Shown here: piece after piece, positions 15,453 to 47,313 of the stretch
How positions within the stretch are numbered: the stretch's first letter is position 1
Layout: the number at the start of each line of letters is the position of its first letter
From: Acidobacteriota bacterium
GTDB taxonomy: Bacteria; Acidobacteriota; Thermoanaerobaculia; Gp7-AA8
Direction of reading: 5' to 3'
DNA: 64,000 nucleotides
Assembly (NCBI GenBank): GCA_003223645.1
Contig: QHVT01000005.1
Coordinates: forward strand, 310,001-374,000
The notes under the pieces: generated by a model
Databases searched by the model: none
What the model was told of the DNA's origin: nothing
The model's input: only the letters and a program-made list of their open reading frames with translations
Made by a program: the position numbers and the translations under genes

Positions 15453-15561
15453 ATGAAGGCAGAAGGCAGAAAGCAGAAAGCAGAAGGAAGAAAGTAAGGA
15501 ACGAGCCGCGCATTTTGCGATTTCTTACTTCTGCCTTCTGCCTTCTGCCCTCTGCCTTCAT
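15453..15561. repeat. Intergenic palindrome, GCAGAAG-word family
   Basis: Runs of GAAGGCA and GAAAGCA words lead into a centre near CGCGCATTTTGCG and return as TTCTGCC words. It fills the gap between the divergent starts of the MglA-like GTPase and the kinase. Confidence 0.9.
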
Positions 15562-15575
15562 ACAATGTCTCCCAC

Positions 15576-17861
15576 GTGCTCTCCGCAGGTTCGCGAATCG
15601 GTCCCTACGAAGTCCTCTCTCTCCTCGGCGAGGGCGGCATGGGCGAGGTGTATCGCGGACGTGATCCGCGCCTCGGCCGCGACATCGCGATCAAGGTGCT
15701 GGCGAAAGATGCGTCGCAGGATGTCGAAGCAACGGGCCGGCTCGAGCGCGAGGCGCGCGCGATTGCTGCGCTGTCGCACCCGAACATCGTCGCCGTGCAC
15801 GACGTCGGTCAGGAGAACGGCACGTTCTACGTCGTCACGGAGCTGCTCGAGGGAAAAACGCTGCGCGATTCGATTCGACAGTCGGCGCTCAACTGGCGGC
15901 GCGCGGTGGAGATCGGCGCGGAAGTGTGCGACGGACTCGCGGCCGCGCACGCGAAGTCGATCGTGCATCGCGACCTCAAGCCGGAGAATATTTTCCTCAC
16001 CGCCGAAGGACGCGTGAAGATCCTCGACTTCGGACTCGCGCAGACCGATCCGGTGCTCACGCAGCGCGACGAAGCGTCGATCCCGACGAGGAAGTGGTTC
16101 CAGACCGATCCCGGCACGGTCATCGGCACACTCGGCTACATGTCGCCTGAGCAACTCCGCGGCGAGCCGGTCGATCCTTCCGCCGATCTCTTCTCCCTCG
16201 GCTGCATCCTCTTCGAGATGGTGACGGCGAAGCGTCCGTTCCATCGCGAGTCCGGCGCCGCAACGATCGCCGCGATTCTGAAAGACGACCTGCCGTCGAG
16301 CGATCTCGAAGCCGCGGTGCCGATGGAGTTCCAGCGCATCATCGAAGGCTGCGTCGAGAAGACTCCGTCGGCGCGTTTTCAATCGGCGCGCGATCTCGCG
16401 CTCACGCTGCGCGCGATCGGCAGCAGCGCGTCGATGCCGAAGGACAACCTCCTCGCGAATCTCACGAAGCGCCGCACGACGCGCTCGAAGACGATCGACT
16501 CGATCGCCGTTCTGCCGCTCGCAAACGAAACGAACGACGCGAACACCGAGTACCTCAGCGACGGAATCACCGAGGGCATCATCAATCAGCTGTCGCGACT
16601 GCCGAAGCTGAAGGTGATGGCGCGCAGCACGGTGTTTCGTTACAAGAATCGCGATGTCGACGCGCAAAGCATCGGCCGCGAGCTGCGCGTGCGCGCGGTG
16701 CTGACGGGACGGCTCAAACAGGCGGGCGACGGACTGCGCATCAACGTCGAGCTGGTCGACACGGTCGACGGATCGCAGTTGTGGGGCGAAACGTACAACC
16801 GCCCGCTCGCCGACCTCGTCGCGCTGCAGGACGACATGTCGCGCGAGATCACGGAGAAGCTGCGCCTCAAGCTCACCGGCGCGGAGAAAAAGAAACTGCG
16901 CAAGCAGTCGACGAAGAGCAGCGACGCGTACCAGCTCTATCTCAAAGGGCGCTATCACTGGAACAAACGCACCGAGGAGAGTCTGCGGCGGGGCATCAGC
17001 TTCTTCCGCGAGGCGATCGAGAACGACCCGTCATTCGCCGGCGCGTACGCGGGACTCGCGGACTGCTTCGTCACGATGACCACGAACATTCCGCTGCCGC
17101 CGCACGAGAACATGCCGAAGGCGAAAGCGGCGGCCATGCGCGCGATGGAGCTCGACGAAGGATTGGCCGAGGCGTGGGCGTCGCTGGGAGCAGTGCGGTG
17201 GTGGTTCGATTGGGATTGGGTCGGAGCGGAGGAGGCATATCGCCGCGCGATCGAGTTGAATCCGAACTACGCGACCGCACACGACGGCTACGCGATGCTC
17301 CTCGCCGCGCGCGCCCGCTATGACGATGCGCTCGAACAAGTCCGCAAAGCGGCCGACCTCGATCCGCTGTCGCTGATCATCGCCACGCACGCGGGATGGC
17401 CGCACTACTTCTCGCGCAACTACGACGCGGCGATTCGCTGCTTCCGCAAAGCGCTCGAGCTCGACGAGCGATTCATTCCCGCGGACGGATGGCTGGGAAT
17501 GGCGCTGGGACAGCAAGGACGATACGGCGAAGCGATCGACGCGTTCACGCGTGCGCTCGAAGTCGATCGCGTGCCGATTCTCTTGACGATGCTCGCGCAC
17601 ACGCACGCGATCGCCGGCGACCGCGCAAAGGCGCTGTTCTATCTCGACGCGCTGCAGGTCGAGGCGAAGGATCGCTACGTCTCGCCCTACGACATCGCCG
17701 TCATTTACGCCGGACTCGGCGACAAAGAACGCGCACTCGAACAGCTGAAAGCGGCGCTCGACGACCGCTCGTCGTGGATGGTTTTTCTGAATGTGGATCC
17801 AAGATTGGACGGTTTGCGCGGAGAAGAGGAGTTTCGCGAAATCGCGAAGAGGTTAAACTAG
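15576..17861 (+). CDS. Ser/Thr protein kinase with TolB-like and TPR regions
   Basis: A 761-residue protein, GTG start at 15576. Residues 1-270 are a Hanks-type kinase: glycine loop LGEGGMGEVYRG, lysine in IAIKVL, catalytic loop IVHRDLKPENIF, DFGLAQ, and GTLGYMSPEQLRG. About 305-440 resembles the TolB/FlgO-type N-terminal domain (IAVLPLANE, EYLSDGITEGIINQLSRL, ALTGRLKQ-like). About 450-755 are TPR repeats (AYAGLADCF, AEAWASLGAVRWW, PADGWLGMALGQQGRYGEAI). No membrane helix is evident, so it is probably cytoplasmic. This architecture is typical of Acidobacteriota and likely scaffolds signalling; substrates are not predictable. Confidence 0.9.
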   Translation: MLSAGSRIGPYEVLSLLGEGGMGEVYRGRDPRLGRDIAIKVLAKDASQDVEATGRLEREARAIAALSHPNIVAVHDVGQENGTFYVVTELLEGKTLRDSIRQSALNWRRAVEIGAEVCDGLAAAHAKSIVHRDLKPENIFLTAEGRVKILDFGLAQTDPVLTQRDEASIPTRKWFQTDPGTVIGTLGYMSPEQLRGEPVDPSADLFSLGCILFEMVTAKRPFHRESGAATIAAILKDDLPSSDLEAAVPMEFQRIIEGCVEKTPSARFQSARDLALTLRAIGSSASMPKDNLLANLTKRRTTRSKTIDSIAVLPLANETNDANTEYLSDGITEGIINQLSRLPKLKVMARSTVFRYKNRDVDAQSIGRELRVRAVLTGRLKQAGDGLRINVELVDTVDGSQLWGETYNRPLADLVALQDDMSREITEKLRLKLTGAEKKKLRKQSTKSSDAYQLYLKGRYHWNKRTEESLRRGISFFREAIENDPSFAGAYAGLADCFVTMTTNIPLPPHENMPKAKAAAMRAMELDEGLAEAWASLGAVRWWFDWDWVGAEEAYRRAIELNPNYATAHDGYAMLLAARARYDDALEQVRKAADLDPLSLIIATHAGWPHYFSRNYDAAIRCFRKALELDERFIPADGWLGMALGQQGRYGEAIDAFTRALEVDRVPILLTMLAHTHAIAGDRAKALFYLDALQVEAKDRYVSPYDIAVIYAGLGDKERALEQLKAALDDRSSWMVFLNVDPRLDGLRGEEEFREIAKRLN

Positions 17862-21049: not shown

Positions 21050-21275
21050 CGCGCGTTGCGCTTGTGAGTTGGTCTTCTCGCACGGCCCAGGAATGCAGAA
21101 GGCAGAATGCAGAAGGCAGAATTGAGAAGCACCTCCCCGCGGGCGGTCTTCTTACTTCTGCCTTCTGCCTTCTGCCTTCTGCCTTCTGCCTCCTGCCTCT
21201 TGCCTTCTGCATTCCTGTCCCGTGCGCGCAGATCAATCACAAGAACGCGAAACGCAACGAGCCCACCAACGCCCG
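21050..21275. repeat. Long palindrome upstream of galU (GCAGAAG core plus outer arms)
   Basis: The core at 21088-21217 has GGAATGCAGAAGGCAGAA words leading into TTCTGCCTTCTGCC words. Outside it, imperfect complementary arms continue (left CTTGTGAGTTGGTC and CGCACGGCCC; right GTGCGCGCAGATCAATCACA). Together with the element at 22665 it defines a larger subfamily with shared outer arms. Nothing coding is seen between 20957 and 21311. Confidence 0.8.
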
Positions 21276-25014: not shown

Positions 25015-25187
25015 GAAAGCAGAACGCAGAATGAAGAATAAAGAACAGATGAAGGCAGAAGGCAGAAGGCAGAAGGTAGAACTGAGAAGTGCACGCGGCA
25101 CGCGCTCGTTCTTCCTTCTGCTCTCTGCCTTCTGCCTTCTGCCTTCATTGTTTCTGCGTTCTGCGTTCTGCGTTCTCCGTTCTCCGT
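25015..25187. repeat. Nested palindrome before ddl, GCAGAAG-word family
   Basis: An outer AGAACGCAGAATGAAG arm pairs with the terminal TCTGCGTTCTGCGTTCTCCG. An inner run of GAAGGCA words pairs with TTCTGCC words around CACGCGGCACGCG. Two word types are nested in one element. Confidence 0.85.
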
Positions 25188-25197
25188 TCACCGCCCC

Positions 25198-44887: not shown

Positions 44888-44926
44888 GCTCCGCGGACCG
44901 CGGAGCGAAGGGCTCATCACCCTTCG
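44888..44926. terminator. Double hairpin between convergent ppdK and YARHG genes
   Basis: GCTCCGCGG/CCGCGGAGC (44888-44906) and GAAGGG/CCCTTC (44907-44925) stand in tandem. The second covers the stop of the minus-strand gene. They are probably transcription ends for both genes. Confidence 0.55.
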
Positions 44927-46038
44927 AAGTTGATGCGACTCGACGCTTCGCTTTCCATCCGGCGAATGAGCTCCGCGTTCGCGTGCTCGACGGGCGTCAG
45001 CGACGCTTCGTTGAACGACGATGCCGGGTGATACCAGTCGAAGCTCGTGAAGTACTCGCGCAGCTCCTGATCCTTGAACGGGCGTCCCCGCCGCGCGTAG
45101 ATCTCGTTGCGCAGCCGGCGCAGATCCTCGGTGAACAGTCCTTCGAGCATCGAAGTCTTCATCTCCTTCGTGCTCAGCGCGTCGTGCAGCTCGCGCTCGC
45201 GCGTGGTGATGATGCGGACGTTGCTCTTCTGCACGGCGGTCAGCATGTCGTCGCGGAACTTCTCGTCCGGCTTGTACCAGGTGTACTGCGAGAACCAGTT
45301 CGCGAGCCACGCCGTTTTGAACTCGCGTCCGCGGCGCGCGTAGATCTCGTTGCGCAGCAATCGCAGCTCGTGCAGGCCGATGTTCTCAAGCGCCAACGGC
45401 GTGATCGGCTTGTCCAACCATCCAGCCAGGTCACCGGGCAGCAGCACGACCTTCCGCTGGCGATGGATCGCCGACTCGATCACATCCAGGTTCTTGCGCT
45501 CGATCGCCGTCAGCACTTTCGGATCGTAGTCACGATCCATCCGATACCAGTAGCGCGCGTCGAAGTAGGCCTGCAGCGTCGGCGAGTCTTCGAGATACTT
45601 TCCGTGAATCGCCTCGATCTCCGCAAGCAGCACGCGCAGCTCCGGGCCGGTGTGCTCGCCGAGGAGCGACTCGGAGAGAGACCGCGCCTTCCACCAGCGC
45701 ATGTCGCCCGGCTCGACGTGCGCATGCAACCGCGCCTCGGCGCCGCGGATGACGTCGAGACTCGCATGCTCCAATTCGCTGAGGTCGATGTTGTCGAAGT
45801 CAGGATTGGCCTTGTACCAGCTCTGCGCGCGGAGGTAGCGGTCGATGTCGCGGTCCACGCCGAAGACGCGCCCGTGGCGGCCGAAGATGATCCCGCGCAC
45901 CAGCCGCAGCTCATCGAGCGTGCGATCCGCGACCGCCGCATCGGTCAGCCGCTCCTTCGCGTAGTCGAACGTCTCCCACGGCTTCGCCGCAAAGAGCGGC
46001 AGGGCGGCGAGGAGCGACAGCAACACGAGTTTTCGCAT
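44917..46038 (-). CDS. Secreted protein with four YARHG-type repeats
   Basis: A 373-residue protein with signal peptide MRKLVLLSLLAALPLFAA. Four repeats of about 55 residues follow. Two are canonical (LRLLRNEIYARRGREFKTAW and LRRLRNEIYARRGRPFKDQE), and two are divergent (LRLVRGIIFGRHGRVFGVDR and LRVLLAEIEAIHGKYLEDS). Each ends in a W-Y motif (WYKPD, WYHPA, WYKAN, YWYRMD) before a conserved helix. YARHG is an extracellular domain of unknown role, sometimes linked with peptidoglycan or envelope proteins. The start is ATG 46038. Confidence 0.8.
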   Translation of the reverse strand: MRKLVLLSLLAALPLFAAKPWETFDYAKERLTDAAVADRTLDELRLVRGIIFGRHGRVFGVDRDIDRYLRAQSWYKANPDFDNIDLSELEHASLDVIRGAEARLHAHVEPGDMRWWKARSLSESLLGEHTGPELRVLLAEIEAIHGKYLEDSPTLQAYFDARYWYRMDRDYDPKVLTAIERKNLDVIESAIHRQRKVVLLPGDLAGWLDKPITPLALENIGLHELRLLRNEIYARRGREFKTAWLANWFSQYTWYKPDEKFRDDMLTAVQKSNVRIITTRERELHDALSTKEMKTSMLEGLFTEDLRRLRNEIYARRGRPFKDQELREYFTSFDWYHPASSFNEASLTPVEHANAELIRRMESEASSRINFEG

Positions 46039-46191
46039 GGGGGAAGCTTAGACCCGGTGCGCCCGCTTGAGAACGAAGGTTCGAAGTTCTTCACCGATGT
46101 GATGCTCCTTCCAGTCAGTGCGAGACGGCGTTGACAGCGACGCGCTGCTCGAATACAAGAGCGAAGTCAAAAACTGGACTAGGAGGTCGCG

Positions 46192-46593
46192 ATGGCACGC
46201 GTGACCGGGATCGGTGGTGTCTTCTTCAAGTCGACGTCGGACCACAAGCAGCTCGCGGCGTGGTACCGGGACAACCTGGGGTTGAAGCTCGAAGACTGGG
46301 GAGGGGCGATCCTGAAGTGGCCCGAGGACCAGGCGGAGGACGGTGGCCTGACCGTCTGGCACGTTGCCGACCGCGAGTCGAAATGGTTCAGCCCCAGCAC
46401 GTCCAGCTTCATGATCAATTATCGCGTCGACGATCTGACAGCGCTCCTCGCGCAGTTGAAGGAGAACGGCGTCGAGGTGGTGAAGGGACCCGACTCCGAC
46501 GAGAACGGCAAGTTCGCGTGGATCATGGATCCCGACGGCAACAAGGTGGAGCTGTGGGAACCAATGGTCCCGGACGAGAAGAACAAGGCTTAA
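46192..46593 (+). CDS. VOC (glyoxalase/bleomycin-resistance) family protein
   Basis: A 133-residue protein with strong TAGGAGG ahead of the ATG. One or two beta-alpha-beta-beta-beta modules: GIGGVFFKSTSDHKQLAAWY, RDNLGLKLEDWGGAIL and the C-terminal FAWIMDPDGNKVELWEPM, with the metal-ligand-type glutamate in VELWE. Members include isomerases, dioxygenases and resistance proteins; the substrate cannot be predicted. It is followed by the 21-bp minisatellite. Confidence 0.8.
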   Translation: MARVTGIGGVFFKSTSDHKQLAAWYRDNLGLKLEDWGGAILKWPEDQAEDGGLTVWHVADRESKWFSPSTSSFMINYRVDDLTALLAQLKENGVEVVKGPDSDENGKFAWIMDPDGNKVELWEPMVPDEKNKA

Positions 46594-46623
46594 GTGCCTT
46601 CGATGAGTCACGGCAGCTGATCG

Positions 46624-47313
46624 ATGAGTTCCGCGACGTCGGCGTTGAGGTCCCGCGAACTCAGCGTTGATTCCGCAACGTCAGCGTTAAGGTTCCGCGA
46701 ACTCAGCGCTGACACCGCGCCAGTTGAGCACGTCAGCGGCCCGGTGTTCGGTCGCATCGATGCCTCGATCGGTGTCATCGATGGGTCGATCGGTGCCATC
46801 GAGGCCTCGATTGGTGCCGTCGATGGGATGATCGGTGTCATCGATGAGACCATCGGTGTCATCGATGAGACGATCGTTGCCATCGATGAGACGGTCGGTG
46901 TCGTCGATGAGACCATCGGTGTCATCGATGAGACGATCGGTGCCGTCGATGGGACGATCGGTGTCATCAATGGGTCGATCGATGCCATCAATACCTTTAT
47001 CGCTCGCGCGGCAGGTGCAGGTGCAGGGACAGGCGACGAGCGCGGCGACAGCCGGCCTCAACGAAGCGCTCTCGTGGTTCGTGCATCAGCAGCAGCAGCC
47101 GGTCACGGCGTTCGGATCCGAAAGTCGACGTCGGCGGCGTCTGCACGCACATACTTCCGCACAATCCGCTCGCGTTCGAGTCGGAGGATCGTGACGTGGC
47201 GGCAGGTAGGCCGCGAGGCGGAGCAATCCACGCAGCCGCCCGTGGCGGCTAGTCGCGCTGACTCTCGCGCCGCTCTTTCCACTGGTGGTACGCCCACATG
47301 CCGACCGCGATGA
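46624..47313 (+). CDS. Possible coiled-coil/heptad-repeat protein over a minisatellite (uncertain)
   Basis: A 229-codon frame from ATG 46624. Residues 1-30 hold two 14-residue repeats (ATSALRSRELSVDS and ATSALRFRELSADT). Residues 49-125 are eleven perfect 7-residue units of the form IGVIDET, with isoleucine at positions 1 and 4, as in a coiled coil. The remainder is R- and S-rich and unlike a folded protein, and its end overlaps the DedA gene by 65 bases. Because 21 is a multiple of three, other frames are also open here. Coding is uncertain. Confidence 0.25.
   Translation: MSSATSALRSRELSVDSATSALRFRELSADTAPVEHVSGPVFGRIDASIGVIDGSIGAIEASIGAVDGMIGVIDETIGVIDETIVAIDETVGVVDETIGVIDETIGAVDGTIGVINGSIDAINTFIARAAGAGAGTGDERGDSRPQRSALVVRASAAAAGHGVRIRKSTSAASARTYFRTIRSRSSRRIVTWRQVGREAEQSTQPPVAASRADSRAALSTGGTPTCRPR
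46756..47001. repeat. 21-bp tandem minisatellite, eleven full units
   Basis: Units of 21 bp such as ATCGGTGTCATCGATGAGAC plus one base, from 46768 to 46998, diverged by a few bases between copies. A related 42-bp direct repeat precedes it (about 46630-46720). Each unit contains the palindrome ATCGAT. It lies between the VOC and DedA genes. Confidence 0.9.

Follow-up and report, generated by a model that had tools for sequence, protein, structure and literature searches.

Intergenic tandem arrays with a common unit length of about 21 bp in four related Thermoanaerobaculia genomes

The 21-bp tandem array in the window (the whole stretch of 64,000 nucleotides that was analysed, C41:310001-374000 of the 6.38-Mb source genome, G000) is a member of an intergenic class that is present in four genomes of its family and whose units measure 21 ± 1 bp or a double or triple of that length. 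The array also represents a repeat element that is present in G000 in four dispersed copies. The interest of the locus lies in this class, whose arrays are intergenic, mostly unrelated in sequence and alike in unit length. The window repeat is most likely one of many such non-coding arrays and not a gene for a coiled-coil protein.

The array locus and its dispersed copies

Both repeats of the locus sit in a 655-bp gap (46594-47248) separating two convergent genes, an upstream gene for a glyoxalase-fold protein (PF00903; 46192-46593, forward strand) and a downstream gene for a VTT-domain membrane protein (PF09335; 47249-47821, reverse strand), which we take to be DedA-like. The preliminary description of this DNA had reported a 21-bp minisatellite preceded by a 42-bp repeat, and TRF bore out both repeats and their coordinates. 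The 21-bp array was detected at 46748-46989 (11.5 copies, 81% matches, 0% indels, score 267), or alternatively at period 63 from 46766 (score 301), and cutting it in register gave 12 units at 46748-46999 in exact register and without indels. Its dyad cores, CATCGATG and CGATCG, lie about 10.5 bp apart. The 42-bp tandem repeat (46629-46712; TRF, 2.0 copies, 88%, score 133) is made of two diverged 21/22-bp halves and represents a second array family; it distantly resembles an array at C29:16940-17544 of G000, with a DNA match of 76-77% to C29:17083-17164 and 17425-17508. No Rfam family reached its gathering score in the window. A consensus scan of the window gap detected no promoter- or terminator-like sites, which ruled out an array of terminators or promoters, and a CRISPR array was ruled out by units that are contiguous, alike throughout and without spacers.

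Relatives of the array were found on contigs C5, C8 and C29 of G000, with a distant one on C15. The conserved left end (46719-46763, forward strand) is common to all four genomic copies, and a pattern search for CAGTTGARCACRTCAGCGGCC from this end, allowing up to three mismatches, returned four places in G000; an exact match was absent from a named genome collection, which may omit G000 itself. Alignments showed that both the left and the right ends correspond across the four copies, the right end (46958-47019, forward strand; about GATCGATGCCGTCAANACCTTCATCGATCGCGTCGATGCGACC) being decayed in the window copy and conserved in the other three. Counted from the first unit through to the one resembling GCCGTCAAnACCTTCA, the window copy has 12 units, C5 18, C8 11 and C29 4, all in register. 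The left-end segment GGTCGCATCGATGC is matched in inverted orientation by GCGTCGATGCGACC, which lies at the right end in the C5, C8 and C29 copies; the pairing was read by eye and is decayed in the window copy.

Among 39 relatives searched, only G005 and G014 had matches, which were weak and of the ATCGAT type, and the congener G001 had no match to the window array. In G001 the sequences on either side of the C29 copy match separate contigs. The block 44917-47250, which holds a YARHG gene, the glyoxalase gene and both arrays, had no DNA match between its neighbouring genes in L120 (G001) or L124, and the genes flanking the block stand much closer to each other there. Because the C29 flanks are split in G001 and the block is unmatched at that locus, no clean empty site was found for the window family. 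With respect to a phage origin, one 28-base array pattern had no exact match in viral contigs; with respect to a plasmid origin, no plasmid match was obtained.

Other features of the window were noted as well. The YARHG gene (44917-46038, reverse strand) encodes a protein of 373 aa in which four stretches match YARHG. At 15455-15559, 21091-21214 and 25015-25193 of the window, 7-bp GAAGGCA arrays are followed close by by CTTCTGC-type arrays, which are approximately their reverse complement, as long hairpins would require. Similar GAAGGCA/CTTCTGC-like arrays flank the C29 copy and match many places in G014.

The open frame across the array

The preliminary description had proposed that the array might encode a variable-length coiled-coil protein. 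IGVIDET heptads with isoleucine at positions 1 and 4 are indeed present in most units in one frame, which is open from 46621 to 47313 with an ATG at 46624, and hydrophobic a/d heptads in an open frame are thus present. All four copies keep the frame open and have similar ends, the left end reading VFGRI[DN]ASI and the right end running from an SI[DV]AV-like segment to RVDAT in three copies, as would suit a protein. Across the window array no stop interrupts three of the six frames and a single stop interrupts a fourth, so the openness of the frame means little.

The codon tests and the gene finder led us to judge that the frame (46624-47313, forward strand) is not a gene. Substitutions spread equally over codon positions had been named in advance as evidence against a protein, and within units the changes proved even over the codon positions: heterozygosity at positions 1, 2 and 3 of the IGVIDET frame was 0.228, 0.256 and 0.155 in the 12 window units and 0.266, 0.258 and 0.242 in 48 units from the four copies. 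The synonymous share in this frame was low in the window, with 16 of 130 single-step codon differences (mean of the column-permuted null 0.29); it was 98 of 345 in the C5 copy (null 0.27) and 25 of 49 in the C8 copy (null 0.25, 95th percentile 0.61). The best of six frames in the window was no better than in permuted units (p = 0.85), and the codon-bias test for the best of six frames, combined over 25 arrays, gave a Fisher p of 0.07. No gene was called in the gap 46594-47248 by our own codon-usage gene finder, a crude tool that called 86-89% of bases coding in the survey sets. The C8 copy has no ATG, GTG or TTG ahead of its array, so a start codon is not kept in all copies, and the upstream frame is shifted from one copy to another by a difference of 1 bp. 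The periods of 22, 41 and 43 in sister arrays also speak against a heptad-repeat protein. The conserved ends of the four copies lean toward the third codon position, with changes of 5:3:9 by position when the decayed last 21 bases of the window copy are omitted (p = 0.075 for a third-position excess) and 6:7:13 when they are included (p = 0.058), and because of this lean we keep the protein as a very improbable alternative. The other reading offered at the outset, a plain minisatellite, holds as to the minisatellite; the array is not a plain one, since it is part of a dispersed four-copy element within a class of arrays of the same period.

A common period among intergenic arrays

The class was delineated by running TRF on 864 kb of G000, 398 kb of G001, 400 kb of G005, 303 kb of G014, 300 kb of G018 and 100 kb of G011. 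The surveyed stretches are not random: the window was chosen for its array and the G000 contigs C5, C8, C15 and C29 for its relatives (the piece C29:1-20000 contains an already seen array), the contigs of G001, G005, G018 and G011 are those with protein hits, and G014 is represented by contigs C1-C20. A strong intergenic array was defined by a score of at least 140 and less than 30% called coding. A loose rule assigned arrays to the class when their strongest lag was 20-22, 41-44 or 62-65, and a strict rule added a lag identity of at least 0.5.

By the loose rule, 46 of the 69 strong intergenic arrays in G000, G001, G005 and G014 have a period of about 21 bp or two to three multiples of it (17/27, 2/4, 16/17 and 11/21, respectively), and the corresponding counts were 0/4 in G018 and 0/2 in G011. 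The strict rule gave 44/58 for the first four genomes and 0/4 for G018 and G011 together. Among the 46, L154 and L130 are weak members (lag identity below 0.5) and L040, with a period of 65, is doubtful. The binomial p of 8e-19 for the period excess assumes that lags are uniform from 10 to 70. G018 has one period-21 array just under the threshold (score 139), whose unit consists of three heptamers by sequence. Matches within the strong TRF arrays of period 21 or 22 amount to 81% in the window array and 71-95% in the others. At least four arrays of G014 reach a contig end or stop just short of it.

The sharpness of the period was also evident from the intergenic positions that open a 30-base stretch with 70% identity or more at a given lag. 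Such positions made up 5.66% at lag 21 in G005, as against 0.34% at lag 20 and 0.18% at lag 22, and 2.16%, 0.12% and 0.14%, respectively, in G000. The distribution was broader in G014 (1.57% at lag 21, 0.69% at 22 and 1.49% at 43), and in G018 the value at lag 21 (0.41%) was exceeded at lag 14 (0.77%), as 7-bp repeats would give. Among arrays lying at least 30% within called genes in the six genomes, 14 of 77 fell in the class by the loose rule and 6 of 77 with a lag identity of at least 0.5. The clearest three of these with scores of at least 200 are L148, L136 and L135, the last of which continues an intergenic array; it is likely that some in-gene members are spurious gene calls over arrays. 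The five best arrays in 50 kb of Escherichia coli K-12, which were not sorted by coding status, scored 58 to 91, below the threshold, and two of them have a period of 21. A search of the open-access literature by title or abstract opening returned no such arrays.

The unit consensuses have little in common beyond their length. When 31 of them were compared in 465 pairs at the best rotation and strand, a single pair matched at 15 or more of 21 positions; this pair, with 19/21 matches, comes from two loci of one G005 family. A mild excess of pairs with 11-14 matches was observed. The periods of 14 of the 46 arrays are not divisible by three (mostly 22, 41, 43 and 64, or 21 ± 1 per unit), and a 7-bp sub-period is absent, the lag-7 identity in 30 units being 0.232 against a null of 0.241. 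Since the periods include non-multiples of three, a 7-bp sub-period is lacking and the sequences are mostly unrelated, the rule of unit length looks like two helical turns rather than seven codons.

Several arrays recur as families within one genome, namely L030/L158 in G000, L143/L139/L138 and L127/L135 in G005, and L170/L177 in G014. In G005 the L143 array has 19 matches, spread over 15 contigs and including the array itself and weak matches; eight other genomes, two of them congeners, gave none. The orientation of the flanking genes (tandem 21, convergent 9, divergent 7, edge 9) is near background, and Pfam matches in 17 of 20 neighbouring proteins were mixed and mostly to housekeeping families; a link to gene function was ruled out, as the neighbours have no common function. 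The gap between carbonic anhydrase and CoA-ligase genes that holds the L035 array is occupied in G014 by other DNA and has no tandem array there; opposite the 21-bp array at L035:843-1155 of G000, the G014 segment L168:4527-5440 has two small genes that appear toxin-antitoxin-like by eye.

Origin of the arrays and relation to known repeats

We consider it reasonably probable that these findings reflect a non-coding class of dispersed 21-bp arrays that grew in steps of two helical turns and were then dispersed between genes. Short quasi-palindromic seeds would give rise to arrays, which would lengthen through duplications in steps set by two turns of B-DNA. In a likely form of this mechanism, a protein or an extruded cruciform would bring nicks or strand switches to the same face of the helix at a distance of 21 bp, and the fill-in that follows could give a copy in exact register. 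Once complete, arrays, in some cases together with their ends, would be copied into other intergenic gaps and tolerated there. In this account it is the growth steps, the dispersal steps and the helical reason for 21 bp that we infer.

Ordinary neutral minisatellites, produced by slippage and unequal exchange, with a 21-bp period that goes back to an early array whose dispersed copies then diverged beyond recognition, provide a second and somewhat unlikely explanation. Dispersed families in three genomes, the mixed and mostly housekeeping neighbours and the lack of a strong bias in flanking-gene orientation are consistent with neutrality, as is the finding that units most resemble their neighbours in L131, L132, L139 and L143, where autocorrelation falls with lag; it is flat with lag in L044, L164, L151 and L137. 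The mild excess of consensus pairs with 11-14 matches would fit an accident of ancestral period followed by sequence turnover, but the 31 consensuses retain little residual similarity. Slippage alone, moreover, fixes no length, and the strong arrays of G018 and G011 have other periods. The period is also much rarer in called genes (6/77), though an in-frame duplication of 21 bp should be tolerated there.

Units across the class are often quasi-palindromic, a property that bears both on the proposed seeds and on a third possibility, phased binding arrays. Dyad arms in 30 units averaged 4.70, compared with 3.50 in shuffles, and none of 300 shuffles was as high. In the window family, for which 41 units from the four copies were pooled, the CATCGATG axis combined the best pairing with the strongest covariation (rank 1 of 21 axes, z 3.35). 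Across 25 families dyad covariation was not significant (Fisher p 0.13), so that it was rejected as a rule of the class and the dyads may not be maintained. Folding was below column-permuted controls (z < -1.65, better strand) in 26 of the 46 arrays and not in the rest. The first 150 bases of the window array folded as single-stranded DNA with a z of -4.2, and 46600-47020 folded as RNA with a z of -6.5, both relative to shuffles that do not keep the repeats.

Binding arrays would be sites for a nucleoid or transposase protein, or repeated RNA hairpins, whose two-turn spacing is kept by selection. The sharp period, with ± 1 bp and little else tolerated, would be expected of them, and so would the enrichment of dyads and the covariation in the window family; a natural parallel exists in the ends of IS21 transposons, which carry direct repeats 23 bp apart (PMC10122671). 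Three arrays, of which two are weak, have an IS-like end, GGTAGTGGTCTAG, no more than 35 bp away. With one mismatch allowed, this end had six hits in the surveyed DNA, of which two (L139:1120 and L154:18361) are within 35 bp of survey arrays and a third (L138:16681) touches a short array below the survey threshold. The three adjacent arrays, 21-bp or weak, come from two genomes, and TTTG-N8-TTGTAACA stands behind GGTAGTGGTCTAG in L138 and L139. The L154 array is weak (lag identity 0.38), and the putative transposase remnant next to it was identified by inspection alone. Against binding arrays, the arrays of the class share no sequence for a single protein to read, the window gap has no promoter- or terminator-like site and the gene context is inconsistent. 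The G005 family is missing from two congeners, so the array is not suggested to be a needed site. We therefore regard binding arrays as improbable.

In a more specific and speculative form of the proposed growth and dispersal, which we think unlikely as a whole, a lineage-specific process in Thermoanaerobaculia would write quantised 21-bp arrays from many quasi-palindromic intergenic seeds and spread species-specific families of them, and a Uma2-family enzyme could do the nicking. Uma2 proteins (PF05685, presumably the same as COG4636) are of the PD-(D/E)XK type, related to resolvases and from a proliferating family, and such an enzyme could make the paired nicks. Uma2 matches numbered 12 in G000 (one of them below the cut-off of the family), 3 in G001, 20 in G005, 14 in G014, 2 in G011 and 1 in G018. 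Their number followed array density with a Spearman correlation of 0.99 among these six related genomes, and genome size also correlated with array density (0.84). Uma2 was examined post hoc, after one array had been seen beside a Uma2 gene, and was the one of two families tried that correlated; for this reason it serves as a lead only. The counts in G000, G005 and G014 exceed those in seven other relatives searched (0-4).

Comparison with known systems showed partial likenesses. Mu and Tn7 transposon ends carry spaced direct repeats. The ends of IS21, Tn7 and Mu resemble the arrays in having natural direct repeats, in their case read by a transposase and, for IS21, at the 23-bp spacing given above, but IS21 ends usually have two repeats and one sequence per element, and the arrays have 10-26 repeats. 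Bacterial minisatellites or VNTRs resemble the arrays in their head-to-tail, imperfect units of more than 10 bases and in a unit number that varies between copies (4 to 18 here). The arrays differ from them in that many arrays of one genome, unrelated in sequence, share a unit length and in that some are dispersed families, the window family with fixed ends.

A preferred repeat length and genome-wide arrays are each already known, the former from heptamers (PMC4679880) and the latter from Borgs (PMC9879509). Heptanucleotide repeats are described as the most abundant class of long repeats in most bacterial genomes, with polymerase slippage proposed as their origin (PMC4679880); they share with the arrays a preferred unit length, and G000 has 7-bp arrays as well. 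The units described here instead measure 21 bp without a 7-bp sub-period and are imperfect, often quasi-palindromic and in part dispersed as families. Borg repeats likewise form arrays throughout the genome in a particular lineage, where they are described as independently arisen and fast-changing (PMC9879509). Borg units are perfect, A-rich and of varied length, about half of them (43-65%) in ORFs (PMC9879509), whereas the arrays have imperfect units, a predominant unit length and a largely intergenic location.

REP, BIME and REPIN elements and MITEs are, like the arrays, dispersed intergenic palindromic DNA (compare PMC3733652 and PMC2759123), and a further likeness may lie in putative inverted ends around the array of the window family. 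In REP sequences associated with RAYT, one end of the palindrome carries a GTAG or CGTC tag (PMC3733652). All of these elements share one high-copy sequence, unlike the arrays. Matches to Y1 transposases (PF01797), the RAYT type, numbered 1 in G000, 0 in G001, 15 in G005, 9 in G014, 7 in G011 and 8 in G018 and did not follow array density over the six genomes (Spearman 0.52, p 0.29), which ruled out a REP/RAYT system.

Unit lengths of non-coding repeats in bacteria are usually viewed as accidents of slippage. That most strong arrays in these genomes have one unit length and mostly no common sequence points to a step that sets the length, and the birth of minisatellites thereby becomes a testable question. 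There are practical consequences as well: arrays of about 21 bp may break assemblies, as suggested by the G014 arrays at contig ends, and exact 21-bp units, when read as heptads, can be mistaken for coiled-coil genes in annotation.
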